Of a DNA stretch of 64,000 bases, positions 6,108 through 55,592 are shown piece after piece (within the stretch, counting starts at the first letter, position 1; each line of letters starts with the position of its first letter). Under the pieces are notes generated by a model. The model searched no databases, had not been told where the DNA came from, and was given only the letters and a program-made list of their open reading frames with translations. Source of the stretch: Corynebacterium sanguinis (lineage in GTDB: Bacteria; Actinomycetota; Actinomycetes; Mycobacteriales; Mycobacteriaceae); the NCBI RefSeq assembly GCF_007641235.1, contig NZ_CP038157.1, positions 2,232,001-2,296,000 of the forward strand, written 5' to 3'. The position numbers and the translations under genes are program-made.

Positions 6108-7040
6108 ATGCCGCTGGGAGCCGAAGCGACGGGAATCGCCAACATCGCCATGGACGGGACAACCCTGGACACGTGGTACCCCTCCCCTCGACTCATCACA
6201 GACGCTTCGCTTATCGACGCCCTCACCACCGGCACCACCCGAGTCGGGGCGCGAGAACTGTCCGACCGATTCCTCTCCATCGTCGGCATGGACCGCGACC
6301 GGCTCGTTGAGCTGGTGCCGGTGCGCACCGTCATCGCGAACCTATCCGAGCCACCCGTCGACGCCCACGACGTCTACCTGCGCCTGCACCTGCTCTCCCA
6401 CCGGCTGGTCAAGCCCCTGGAGTTGAACATGACCGACTGCCTGGAGCACCTCGTGCCGGTGGTGTGGACAAACAAGGGTCCGTGCTTGAGCGACAACTTC
6501 GAGCACGTGCGCACCTCCCTACGCTCGCGCGGGCAGATCCACGTCTACGGCATCGAGCGCCTGCCGAGGATGGTCGACTATGTCGTGCCGTCCGGAGTGT
6601 CCATCGCCGAGGCCGAGCGCGTCCGCCTCGGCGCCTACCTCGCGCCGGGCACCTCCGTGATGCGCGAAGGCTACGTGTCCTACAACTCGGGGTCGCTGGG
6701 GCGCGCCCGGATTGAGGGCCGGCTGTCCTCCGCGGTCGTCGTGGGGGAAGGCACCAATGTCGGGCTGTCCTCGGCGCTGATCGCGACGTCGGCGCAGCGT
6801 CACAACCGCACCCCGCTGCGCGTCGGCCGCGACTGCGTGCTGCGACCCGCAGCCGGGGTGATCGGTGTCGATTTGGGCGATCGCTGCGAAATCGGCGTCA
6901 ACGTCATGCTCGAGCCGACAACCACCATCGTGGATTCGCGCTCCGGGGCGATGATCTCCGCCGGGGCCATCGCGGGGCAAAGCGACATCAGCATTACCAA
7001 CGAGCCGAACTCGGCGTGCCCCGTGCTCCGGCCGCGGTAG
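6108..7040 (+). CDS. DapD-like tetrahydrodipicolinate N-succinyltransferase paralogue (diverged)
   Basis: 310 residues, homologous along its whole length to the dapD product at 10847 (shared blocks [27 protein letters not shown] and the left-handed beta-helix). The glutamate of the ARIEGRLS block, equivalent to the proposed catalytic Glu of mycobacterial DapD, is kept. The glycine-rich [14 protein letters not shown] loop is replaced by GLSSALIATSAQRHNR and the C-terminus is shorter. I infer that succinyl-CoA binding or specificity has changed. C. glutamicum also carries a second dapD-like gene near dapE (from memory). The ATG at 6108 lies 7 nt behind a TATGAT hexamer. The 85-bp repeat array begins directly after the stop codon. 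Confidence 0.85.
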   Translation: MPLGAEATGIANIAMDGTTLDTWYPSPRLITDASLIDALTTGTTRVGARELSDRFLSIVGMDRDRLVELVPVRTVIANLSEPPVDAHDVYLRLHLLSHRLVKPLELNMTDCLEHLVPVVWTNKGPCLSDNFEHVRTSLRSRGQIHVYGIERLPRMVDYVVPSGVSIAEAERVRLGAYLAPGTSVMREGYVSYNSGSLGRARIEGRLSSAVVVGEGTNVGLSSALIATSAQRHNRTPLRVGRDCVLRPAAGVIGVDLGDRCEIGVNVMLEPTTTIVDSRSGAMISAGAIAGQSDISITNEPNSACPVLRPR

Positions 7041-7950
7041 TGGGGTTTCGCGTTTTGTCGGTTGACCGTGACATTGCGGTAGGTGGGAAGTCACGATCAG
7101 GCGGTTGTCGGGGCGGCCGACCTGGGTTTTTAGGTTCTGCCGGTGGTTCACCGAGACATTTCGGTGGCCGGGATGTCACGGTCAACCCGATCCCGGCACT
7201 GCCAACCTGGGGTTTTACACCGCGCAGCCGGTTCACCGTGACATTTCACCGGGTTAGATGTCACAGTCAACCCGATCCAACGATGCGCGACCTGCGGTTT
7301 TACACCGCGCAGCCGCTTCACCGTGACATTCCACCACCCAAGATGTCACAGTCAAGCCAACCCAACTAACCCCGACCTGCGGTTTTACACCGCGCAGCCG
7401 CTTCACCGTGACATTCCACCACCCAAGATGTCACAGTCAAGCCAACCCAACGATGCGCGACCTGCGGTTTTACACCGCGCAGCCGGTTCACCGTGACATT
7501 CCACCACCCAAGATGTCACGGTCAACCCAACCCAACGATGCGCGACCTGCGGTTTTACACCGCGCAGCCGGTTCACCGTGACATTCCACCACCCAAGATG
7601 TCACAGTCAACCCGACCCAACGATGCGCGACCTGCGGTTTTACACCGCGCAGCCGCTTCACCGTGACATTCCACCACGCAAGATGTCACAGTCAAGCCAA
7701 CCCAACTAACCCCGACCTGCGGTTTTACACCGCGCAGCCGCTTCACCGTGACATTCCACCACCCAAGATGTCACAGTCAAGCCAACCCAACGAACCCCGA
7801 CCTGCGGTTTTACACCGCACAGCCGCTTCACCGTGACATTCCACCACCCAAGATGTCACGGTCAAGCCAACCCAACGAACCCCGACCAGGGCTTTCACAC
7901 CCCGCAACCCAACGACCCAGACATCCCACCGCAGAAGACACCCCAAACCC
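7041..7950. repeat. Non-coding 85-bp tandem repeat array (about 10.7 units)
   Basis: The landmark GGTTTTACAC recurs at exact 85-bp steps: 7211, 7296, 7381, 7466, 7551, 7636, 7721 and 7806. Degenerate units start at 7041, 7126 and 7891. Middle units are near-identical and both edges decay. Each unit holds a short hairpin, GCGGT-N5-ACCGC, and a longer one, ACCGTGACAT-N13-ATGTCAC(A/G)GT. A further variable block alternates between CGATGCGCGA and C(T/G)AACCCCGA. Because 85 is not a multiple of 3, no reading frame runs through; open frames here are by-products of the repeat. The array fills almost the whole gap between the dapD-like gene and the permease; 7951-8000 shows nothing else. Confidence 0.97.
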
Positions 7951-8013
7951 ACACCACGAAAAACCCACCCCCTGCGCTCTCAATTCACCGACGCCCGGTT
8001 TATTCTAAAGCGC

Positions 8014-9462
8014 ATGTCCCACACCATTTCGCCGCCCGAACCGGCGGCCCCGCGCGACCCAGGTGCCTCCACCGGGTTGCGTCGCGGGTTGAAAACCCGT
8101 CATCTGACCATGATGGGCCTCGGCTCGGCGATCGGCGCCGGGTTGTTCCTGGGCACCGGTGTCGGTATTCAAGCCGCCGGACCAGCCGTAGTCATTGCTT
8201 ATATGATTGCCGGTGCCATCACCGTGTGCATCATGCAGATGCTCGCCGAAATGGTCGCGGCGCGACCGTCGTCGGGCACGTTTTCCACCTACGCCGAGCA
8301 GGCCTTCGGCGCGTGGGCCGGCTTCGCCGTCGGCTGGCTGTACTGGTTCATGATGATCATGATCATGGCGGTGGAAATCACCGGCGCGTCCCGGATCGTC
8401 GCCGGCTGGTTCGGCGTCTCCCCGTGGATCCCCGCCTTGGTCGCCATCGTGTTCTTCACCGTGATTAACTTCGCGGCGGTGCGCAAGTTCGGCGAGTTCG
8501 AGTTCTGGTTCGCCCTGATCAAGGTCGCGGTGATTATCGCCTTCCTCGCCCTCGGCGTCGCACTGTGGCTAGGCCTGTTGCCCGCAAGCGGATTCGTCGG
8601 CTTCGACAACATCGCCGAGGTCGGGTTCATGCCCAACGGCTTCGGCGGTGTTGCCACTGCCCTGCTCGCCGTGGCGTTCGCCTTCGGCGGCATCGAGATG
8701 GTCACCATCGCCGCGGCGGAGTCCGAGGACCCGGAGGTCGCCGTCCACTCCGCGATCCGCTCGATTATGTGGCGCATCGGTATCTTCTACATTGGCTCCG
8801 TCGTCCTGATCACCCTGCTGCTGCCCTACTCCGAGATCGGTGGCGCGGACGTCGCCGCCGAGTCGCCCTTTACCGCCGTGTTGCAGCTGGCGAACATCCC
8901 CGGCGCCGTCGGAATCATGGAGGCGGTGATCGTCGTCGCGCTGCTCTCGGCCTGCAACACGCAGATCTACGGCTCCTCGCGTTTCCTGCACAACCTCGCA
9001 CACCGCTGCGACGCCCCCGTGTTCTTCCAGGCCACAGACTCGCGCGGCGTGCCCATGCGCGCCGTCGTGTTGTCGGTGTTCTTCGGCTTCGTCGCCGTGG
9101 CCCTGCAGTACTGGAACCCGCCGGGTCTGCTGCCGTTTCTGCTCAACGCGGTCGGCGGCTGCCTGATCGTTTTGTGGTTCGCCATCGCGTTTTCCTTCCT
9201 GCGCCTCCACCCGCGCCTAGTGGCATCCGGCGAGATCACGCACGTGCGCATGTGGGCGCCGCGCGTGCTGCCGTGGGCCACCATCGCGCTTGCCGCTTGC
9301 ATCGTCGCACTGATGCTCACCACCGCGGAGGGCCGCTTCCAGATGTTCGCGGTGGTGGTCGTCGTCGGCGTCGTCACCATCGCCGGGCTGGTCTGGACAC
9401 ACACTGACACGTTCAAACAGCGCACCGCGCTGCACACCGAGAGGACCCACCTTGAGCACTAA
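8014..9462 (+). CDS. APC-family amino acid permease (first of tandem pair)
   Basis: 482 residues with about 12 hydrophobic segments. The N-terminal block LKTRHLTMMGLGSAIGAGLFLGTG is the first-helix signature of the amino-acid transporter (AAT) branch of the APC superfamily (AroP, GabP, CycA and related H+-coupled importers). The substrate cannot be read from sequence. The ATG at 8014 lies 7 nt behind TATTCT (8001-8006) with no Shine-Dalgarno, so it is probably leaderless. The 3' end overlaps the second permease by 11 nt, so the two are co-translated. Placement between two dapD genes might suggest a role with lysine, DAP or related amino acids, but this is inference from position only. Confidence 0.88.
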   Translation: MSHTISPPEPAAPRDPGASTGLRRGLKTRHLTMMGLGSAIGAGLFLGTGVGIQAAGPAVVIAYMIAGAITVCIMQMLAEMVAARPSSGTFSTYAEQAFGAWAGFAVGWLYWFMMIMIMAVEITGASRIVAGWFGVSPWIPALVAIVFFTVINFAAVRKFGEFEFWFALIKVAVIIAFLALGVALWLGLLPASGFVGFDNIAEVGFMPNGFGGVATALLAVAFAFGGIEMVTIAAAESEDPEVAVHSAIRSIMWRIGIFYIGSVVLITLLLPYSEIGGADVAAESPFTAVLQLANIPGAVGIMEAVIVVALLSACNTQIYGSSRFLHNLAHRCDAPVFFQATDSRGVPMRAVVLSVFFGFVAVALQYWNPPGLLPFLLNAVGGCLIVLWFAIAFSFLRLHPRLVASGEITHVRMWAPRVLPWATIALAACIVALMLTTAEGRFQMFAVVVVVGVVTIAGLVWTHTDTFKQRTALHTERTHLEH

Positions 9463-54590: not shown

Positions 54591-55592
54591 GTGTTCCGTA
54601 CGAGCCGCATCCGCATCACCGCCGCAGTGTTCACCGCTGCCACCCTCGCCCTCGCCGGTTGTTCCTCCGAGTCCGGTTCCTCCAATGCCGATTCCTCCAA
54701 GCCCGATGCAGGCGAAGAGCCCTACTCCATCGGCATCTCCCAGCTAGTCCAACACCCCGCCCTCGATTCAGCAACGGAAGGTTTCAAACAGGCATTCGCA
54801 GATGCCGGTATCGACGTCAAGTGGGAGGAGCAGAACGCCAACGGCGAGCAGGCCACTGCACTGACCATTGCGCAGCAGTTCACCGCGCAGGACCTCGATT
54901 TGGTGCTTGCGAACGCCACCCCGGCCGCGCAGGCCATGGCGCAAAACATCGCCGACATCCCCGTGCTGTTCACCTCGGTGACCGACCCGGTCGAGGCGCA
55001 GCTGGTCGAGTCCCTCGAATCGCCAGGTGGCAACGTCACGGGTACCTCCGACAAGACCCCGCTGGCGGACCAGTTCGACCTCATCGAGCAGCTGGTCCCG
55101 GACGCCTCGACCATCGGCATCATCTATTCCTCCGGAGAGGTCAACTCCCAGATCCAGGTCGACGAGGCCACCGCGGAGGCCGAGGGCCGCGGCATGACCG
55201 TCAAGACGCAGACCATCACTAGCGTGGGTGAGATCCCGCAGGCCGTCGCCGCGCTCGGCGATGTCGACGCGTTCTACGTCCCCACCGACAACATGGTGGT
55301 CTCGGGGATCTCGTCGCTGATTCAGGCGGCGGAAGAAGCTAAGACCCCGGTCATCGGCGCCGAGGCTGGCACCGTCGAGGGCGGGGCCGTGGCCACCATC
55401 GGCATCGATTACTTCGAGCTCGGCCGCCAGACCGGTGAGATGGCGATCCGCATCCTGCGCGACGGTGAGGACCCTGCAACAATGCCTGTGGAGACCGCCA
55501 GCGAGTTCGCGTACTACGTCAACGAGGACGCTGCCGAGGCCCAGGGCGTGACCATCCCGCAGGACATCCTCGACCAGGCCGAACGCGTCTAA
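54591..55592 (+). CDS. ABC transporter substrate-binding lipoprotein (TrpX/PF04392-like)
   Basis: 333 residues, GTG start. Signal peptide ends LALAGCSSE (lipid Cys 24). GISQLVQHPALDSATEGFKQAF at the start of the mature fold is the signature of the ABC_sub_bind family (PF04392), with QNANGEQATALTIAQQF following. Members include TrpX of streptococci (tryptophan), but other aromatic or nucleoside-like ligands are possible. It is the first gene of a three-gene operon (binding protein, permease, ATPase) that interrupts the second copy of the duplicated block. Confidence 0.88.
   Translation: MFRTSRIRITAAVFTAATLALAGCSSESGSSNADSSKPDAGEEPYSIGISQLVQHPALDSATEGFKQAFADAGIDVKWEEQNANGEQATALTIAQQFTAQDLDLVLANATPAAQAMAQNIADIPVLFTSVTDPVEAQLVESLESPGGNVTGTSDKTPLADQFDLIEQLVPDASTIGIIYSSGEVNSQIQVDEATAEAEGRGMTVKTQTITSVGEIPQAVAALGDVDAFYVPTDNMVVSGISSLIQAAEEAKTPVIGAEAGTVEGGAVATIGIDYFELGRQTGEMAIRILRDGEDPATMPVETASEFAYYVNEDAAEAQGVTIPQDILDQAERV

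Follow-up and report, generated by a model that had tools for sequence, protein, structure and literature searches.

The 85-bp tandem array that separates a dapD-like gene from an amino acid permease gene in the window (the whole stretch of 64,000 nucleotides analysed, positions 2,232,001-2,296,000 of the single 2,362,885-bp contig of its own genome, here G000) is real, and it belongs to an array-forming repeat family that is spread over the genome, has a module of three parts at fixed spacing and is confined to a few Corynebacterium species. Membership in this family, the 72-bp module and a strong compositional polarity of the array ends all go beyond the preliminary description of the array. 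The best explanation overall would be a dispersed repeat family recognised by a protein and possibly acting as a two-way insulator, for which we put the chances at about even.

The array and its genome-wide family

The array and its surroundings hold the following features, where coordinates are those of the window unless a locus is named. Modules come from the module scan, neighbouring genes from open reading frames and Pfam, and edges from composition.

6108..7040, plus strand: dapD-like gene (Pfam THDPS_M), upstream neighbour
7041..7930, no strand assigned: entire array, about 10.5 units of 85 bp with decay in the outer ones (Tandem Repeats Finder, repeat and profile searches)
7041..7160, plus strand: left edge, G/T-rich on the plus strand; highest C/G ratio in 78 nt of the minus strand 2.69
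7088..7159, minus strand: module 1, ATGTCAC-N21-AAAACCNCAGGT-N25-GTGACAT, 3 of 25 fixed positions differ
7173..7244, minus strand: module 2, 25 of 25 fixed positions match
7258..7329, minus strand: module 3, exact
7343..7414, minus strand: module 4, exact
7428..7499, minus strand: module 5, exact
7513..7584, minus strand: module 6, exact
7598..7669, minus strand: module 7, exact
7683..7754, minus strand: module 8, exact
7768..7839, minus strand: module 9, exact
7853..7924, minus strand: module 10, decayed, 5 of 25 fixed positions differ
7780..7980, plus strand: right edge, C/A-rich on the plus strand; best 78-nt C/G ratio 5.25 (3.33 in the frame of ±100 bp)
8014..9462, plus strand: amino acid permease gene, downstream neighbour, ATG at 8014
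Locus L027, 4601..5530: REase-like gene (MTES_1575/DUF559, below the Pfam cut-offs), array neighbour at the def junction

Tandem Repeats Finder gives a period of 85 bp over 8.3 copies at 7205-7906, with 93% matches and no indels, and a repeat search of the window finds nine copies of 300 nt that overlap, each offset from the last by exactly 85 bp, from 7035-7334 (the first) to 7715-8014 (the last). Both agree with the exact 85-bp step of the preliminary description, whose 910 bp make 10.7 units (910/85). The profile search delimits 10 units at 7038-7884, with a single 82-bp step at the decayed left end, and an extra decayed module lies beyond them at 7853-7924. As had been described, the array starts at the stop codon of the dapD-like gene and ends before the start of the permease gene, and its units, as delimited by the profile search, are homogenised in the centre and decayed at both ends.

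The finer structure first proposed for the unit holds in part. Of its two hairpins, the large palindrome ACCGTGACAT-N13-ATGTCAC(A/G)GT is present in all eight units at 7205-7884 and altered in the two left-most ones, whereas the small GCGGT-N5-ACCGC occurs in this array but is not general in the family. The 10-bp block thought to switch between two versions does vary, but in at least three of them (..GATGCGCG, ..TAACCCCG and ..GAACCCCG). A sigma-70 type scan found no promoter at 6950-8050, where two terminator-like sites occur against 1.3 expected. In the rest of the 64-kb window no module copy is found by a scan of the 25 fixed positions allowing up to seven mismatches, and a 15-bp repeat, TTCCTCCAAGCCCGA, is present in 3.1 copies at 54662-54707.

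A search of G000 itself yielded 46 matches, which group into at least 18 arrays including that of the window, many more than expected by chance, at approximately 56, 100, 459, 979, 1086, 1099, 1111, 1120, 1129, 1140, 1248, 1409, 1606, 1803, 2151, 2190, 2201 and 2239 kb. The 85-bp period is recovered by Tandem Repeats Finder in all 18, an iterated profile delimits 109 units in them with 88 of 91 unit steps of exactly 85 bp, and the scan with up to seven mismatches gives 113 module matches in these loci. All 18 arrays are intergenic by our own gene calls, with some small overlaps at uncertain gene starts or ends, and they are found on both strands, at six convergent, seven co-directional and five divergent junctions (read by eye). 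Their neighbours are unrelated, and include genes for acetate kinase, a PknG-like kinase, peptide deformylase, a chaperonin, YebC and RuvC, NAD synthase and histidinol dehydrogenase. A regulon was rejected as an explanation on the grounds that the flanking genes matched by Pfam have unrelated, mostly housekeeping functions. We are highly confident that the array belongs to a dispersed intergenic repeat family with a fixed module.

The consensus search suggested in the preliminary description extends this family to other Corynebacterium genomes. Several copies are present in five of 242 genomes of the genus according to the profile search, namely G000, G020 (C. lipophiloflavum DSM 44291), G041, G058 and G117, where copy counts are lower bounds, scored under stricter filters on 20 candidates per genome in the genus search and on 24 in the search of the taxonomic family. 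G000 has 73 exact copies of the core GTGACAT-N13-ATGTCAC, G020 has 21, and G058 and G138 have one each, while the other 238 of the 242 genomes have none; the same pattern read backwards, used as a control, occurs once (G221). Matches taken as chance were obtained in G069 (one weak profile match), G138 (the one pattern match), and G054 and G066 (weak blastn matches). In a draw of 201 genomes of the taxonomic family, two from other genera (G384 and G421) have one partial, low-scoring match each, also taken as chance. A scan of named genomes, in collections that may exclude records of the window's own genome, returned 14 loci, 13 of them in Corynebacterium lipophiloflavum DSM 44291 and one, taken as chance, in a Bryobacterales metagenome-assembled genome. 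Plasmid and phage records had no match to the repeat, while viral contigs gave one single match without the repeat (first 600 bases) and none for the palindrome.

Geometry and constraint of the 72-bp module

Each unit is built on a 72-bp module, ATGTCAC-N21-AAAACCNCAGGT-N25-GTGACAT, in which two inverted half-sites (in their longer form TTSACYGTGACAT) surround the asymmetric central motif AAAACCNCAGGT. Counting every occurrence of the central motif with an arm within reach, the gap of 25 between motif and GTGACAT is kept in 96 of 98 cases in G000, 30 of 31 in G020, 5 of 5 in G041, 4 of 5 in G058 and 8 of 12 in G117, and the gap of 21 on the opposite side in 91 of 97, 30 of 32, 5 of 5, 5 of 6 and 11 of 13, respectively, counts that leave out many G117 units with a variant motif (..TTTCCCCAGGT) and variant arms. 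On the other hand, the junction between consecutive modules differs among species: 13 bp in G000 (87/88) and G020 (23/23), 22 bp in G117 (6/7), 5 bp in G058 (2/3), and 12 and 29 bp (one each) in G041. Since this junction of 5 to 22 bp sets the period, which Tandem Repeats Finder places at 77, 83, 84, 85 or 94 bp across arrays (a range of 77 to 94), the 85 bp is a derived property and the 72-bp module is the unit. Two modules lie 77 bp apart at L180 of G020, and loci with a single module exist in G041 (L089 and L090). At L085 and L086 of G117, L091 of G041 and L180 of G020, a subtype is observed in which the central motif of the module is followed immediately by an additional arm-like GGTCAC(A/G)GTC.

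Three blocks are conserved per aligned unit, and the stretches between them mostly hold 0.1-0.8 bit per column, in a profile from which 38 of the 109 units were dropped and whose filter requires motif pieces, so that the conservation of the motif blocks is inflated. A further view comes from 11 orthologous array loci of G000 and G020, where motif columns changed at 166 of 1593 positions and variable columns at 308 of 1658 (chi-square p 6e-11), that is, motif columns change about half as fast; three of these loci (L022, L025 and L028) align poorly, and the counts without them, made by hand, are 58 of 1178 and 123 of 1228. Drift free of selection would presumably also have left more indels in the variable stretches.

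Units with variants in both half-sites are depleted at three of four symmetric position pairs (one-sided Fisher p 0.037, 0.019 and 0.011; 0.38 for the fourth), in uncorrected tests on 45 non-redundant units from the information-profile filter; the half-site table drops 13 of the 109 units, and these p values are optimistic because the units of one array are related. The depletion is modest, and fits a double-stranded site in which at most one half is weaker, or else an avoidance of perfect palindromes.

Among the functions first considered for the array, a clustered protein-binding site is the one that the fixed geometry and the slower change of motif positions favour most, and the family resembles an array of double-stranded protein sites in having conserved motifs at fixed spacing with freer sequence between them. 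As far as sequence can tell, the module is probably an array-forming, double-stranded protein site under selection. A sequence-specific protein would read the module as double-stranded DNA, probably as a dimer on the half-sites with an additional contact at the central motif, and selection for its binding would keep the geometry of the module, while slippage or unequal crossing-over would generate the tandem copies in place. The REase-like gene beside L027 was considered as the source of this binder and set aside as a weak candidate, since its multi-copy family has matches in 168 of the 242 Corynebacterium genomes. Modules are present at the L027 junction in all five species (1 to 11 by scans), where the assignment in G020 follows from the REase-like neighbour, the one of the two neighbours that was checked.

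Compositional polarity of the array ends

In 17 of 18 arrays, G and T are enriched in the first half and C and A in the last half, by GC skew as well as by TA skew; L036 is the exception. The keto skew, taken in 50-bp bins, is positive at the left boundary in 17 and 18 of the 18 arrays and negative at the right boundary in 16 and 15 of them, and it fades past about 100 bp. No comparable pattern is seen in 13 control intergenic regions taken from our own gene calls.

Consequently to this polarity being read on the strand of the transcript, RNA leaving an array contains a 78-nt stretch with a C/G ratio of at least 2, a cut-off picked after the skew had been seen, at 30 of 36 outward ends, against 1 of 36 inward ends and 16 of 312 control windows; of the 26 edges of the control intergenic regions, 1 reaches this ratio outward and 2 do so inward. 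The boundaries used for the comparison across species give 27 of 36 outward ends for G000. With the same measure, outward and inward ends differ in G020 (20/30 vs 1/30) and G117 (10/14 vs 0/14), while the outward tracts are weaker in G041 (3 of 12 ends), and in G058 (1 of 6, from three sites) the difference is not significant (p 0.2).

Several readings of the array ends were tried and rejected. Transcription from the flanks is not supported as the cause of the skew, since the outward C/G is independent of the direction of the neighbouring gene (16/19 vs 14/17). Deamination cannot be the sole cause, as C>G transversions are as common as C>T in the left-end units (17 each). Folding back of the two ends of an array on each other is not favoured, as pairs of own ends (43.1) score no better than swapped ends (46.9).

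RhoTermPredict, according to the available text of its description (PMC6407284), seeks a 78-nt RUT site with an excess of C over G and a regular spacing of C. The RNA leaving the arrays is similar to the RUT sites of Rho-dependent terminators in its 78-nt C-over-G stretches, a likeness scored on the C/G ratio. Unlike RUT sites, the C-rich stretches of the family are tied to repeat arrays and found at both of their ends. Such a C-rich, G-poor stretch, present at most ends, might serve as a Rho entry site, and since it is found in either direction, read-through would stop from whichever side it comes. Thus, the arrays may conceivably act as two-way transcription insulators, perhaps by Rho-type termination, a tentative reading drawn from composition. 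Their presence at convergent, co-directional and divergent junctions alike would be unexpected for a terminator alone.

Alternative explanations and comparison with known repeats

A possible, though rather unlikely, alternative to a protein-binding site is a MITE-like origin, in which a non-autonomous element of 72 to 85 bp with terminal inverted repeats was moved by a transposase in trans and then amplified in tandem, the geometry being kept because only intact modules move. Like a MITE, the module is bounded by terminal inverted repeats (ATGTCAC..GTGACAT), and copies exist singly. Arrays are also missing at orthologous junctions of relatives. In a comparison of the window site across 10 genomes, from which G069 was left out (a match of only 47%, likely a paralogue), the dapD-permease junction lacks the array in G041, G058, G066, G021, G120, G034 and G054, and holds decayed modules in G117 (L194), followed by what appears to be a transposase gene. 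The yebC-ruvC array is shared only with G020 among 10 relatives; about 4 bp separate the genes in G058, and they overlap in G117. Because close relatives do without arrays at these orthologous junctions, the two sites looked at are dispensable. Moreover, the type of module at one junction varies between species. Contrary to the expectation for a mobile element, flanking-protein searches place counterparts in G020 for 14 of the 18 arrays of G000, a count in which the G020 counterparts of L024, L029, L037 and L038 were not sought individually, and the motifs at these old shared sites are largely intact; in addition, a target-site duplication is not established, the flanks of array-free sites being too diverged to call, and no full-length element came up in the searches made for the repeat.

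Two further observations concern single loci. At L144 of C. lipophiloflavum, two modules lie 147 bp apart, and their flanks match none of the 18 array loci of G000. Upstream of a groEL-type gene, in the same gap as L028, G002, G016 and G037 (L157, L154 and L156) carry a different repeat, in which GATGCTTACC copies at the left end face GTAAGCATCC copies at the right end, which may be the intergenic repeat of another lineage at this site.

Quite unlikely, in our estimate, is a chromosome-organising site (for partition, macrodomains or replication forks) bound by an architectural protein and centred on a cluster of six arrays. These arrays follow one another at intervals of 8 to 13 kb over about 1085-1140 kb, 275-330 kb from dnaA, and counterparts of part of the cluster are found in the same order in G117 (L026, L027, L028 and L030), in G058 (L027 and L028) and in G041 (L027 and L029, with L031 less certain), at about 265-385 kb from dnaA; the fixed geometry of the module also suits this explanation. 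Against it, close relatives differ in which sites they have, neither dnaA (810 kb) nor the dif-like site (1953 kb) is at the centre of the arrays, and 11 of the 18 are co-oriented with replication by a hand count, which is no clear bias. A marker of the terminus or origin was likewise rejected, given the distance of the cluster from both landmarks.

A neutral minisatellite family, whose modules spread once, whose arrays are resized by slippage and whose similarity reflects shared ancestry only, is already disfavoured and would be improbable. It draws support from the homogenised centres and decayed ends, and from length differences between G000 and G020 that come to nearly whole units at seven of 11 loci (+9, +7, +5, +3, +2, 0 and -1, within 14 bp), while the differences are 92, 234 and 55 bp at L022, L025 and L031, and L028 is unreadable. 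The window site is among those resized: in G020 it has the same decayed outer units and a segment shorter by 594 bp, about seven units (7 x 85 = 595), so that the copy-number comparison once proposed does reveal a difference. Together, the presence or absence of arrays across relatives and their changes of length indicate that arrays were gained or lost at junctions and resized in place. The idea of a recombination element thus finds backing in a change of copy number between sister species, but a specific recombination site is unsupported. However, neutrality does not predict gaps of 21 and 25 held fixed across variable sequence in five species, motif columns that change about half as fast as variable ones, or the inward G/T skew at most ends. 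The arms are also conserved in four relatives, whereas the preliminary description had regarded an absence of such conservation as the sign of a neutral minisatellite.

The suggestion that the units are transcribed and fold into a structured RNA with two hairpins is very improbable: most units do contain a 40-bp imperfect palindrome, but alignment A1 (31 of the 45 non-redundant units) contains no covariation (84.5% of cells paired vs 85.0% in shuffles, with 401 of 500 shuffles at or above the observed value), complementary double variants are depleted at three of the four position pairs tested, the small hairpin pairs in only 64.5% of cells in the 31 family units, the arrays lie on both strands and in all gene arrangements, and a search of the window against Rfam at gathering thresholds gives no match.

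In proteobacteria, dispersed palindromic repeats have been studied extensively, and many of them are linked to RAYT transposases. Neisseria harbours the NIME and dRS3 repeats, whose units form intergenic arrays and have short inverted repeats at their boundaries, and Mycobacterium the MIRU-VNTR loci, dispersed intergenic tandem repeats of 50-100 bp with variable copy number. The family resembles NIME and dRS3, as these are generally described, in its inverted-repeat boundaries and intergenic arrays, and differs from them in the sequence of its arms and in its fixed internal motif and spacing, with no phage link found. It shares with MIRU-VNTR, again by general description, the dispersed intergenic tandem repeats of variable copy number in an actinobacterium, but has palindromic half-sites and a fixed module. 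With the REP and BIME elements of enterobacteria and pseudomonads it has in common extragenic palindromic repeats in many copies and regular arrays; unlike them, it has a second, non-palindromic motif at a fixed distance and a single head-to-tail period. Whole units follow head to tail at 85 bp, and the half-sites inside them alternate in orientation. The Y1/RAYT transposase domain (PF01797) is absent from all five carrier genomes, which led us to reject an identity with REP/RAYT systems, and is matched in five of 14 control genomes. REP and BIME elements are described, in the available text of PMC2817692, as binding sites of several proteins, and REPs are reported there to facilitate Rho-dependent termination. 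By word search, neither Corynebacterium nor Actinobacteria is mentioned in the available text of a survey of GTAG/CGTC repeats (PMC3733652). Literature searches on tandem or intergenic repeats, palindromes, MITEs and VNTR in Corynebacterium, and on C. lipophiloflavum and C. sanguinis, gave no title describing the family among the matches listed, in a literature where most subscription journals fall outside the scope.

Returning to the protein-recognised family, its most far-reaching form, in which a putative protein reads the three-part module, the arrays are two-way barriers and the modules have spread to new gene junctions and expanded there, is speculative and, taken together, unlikely. If true, genome-wide insulation would have arisen in a few Corynebacterium species without RAYT-type transposases. 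In any case the family offers a compact, testable system for asking about the spread of new intergenic elements, the keeping of spacing and a possible insulation of genes. A few actinobacterial species hold a repeat family whose architecture is different from, and more constrained than, that of the well-studied proteobacterial ones.
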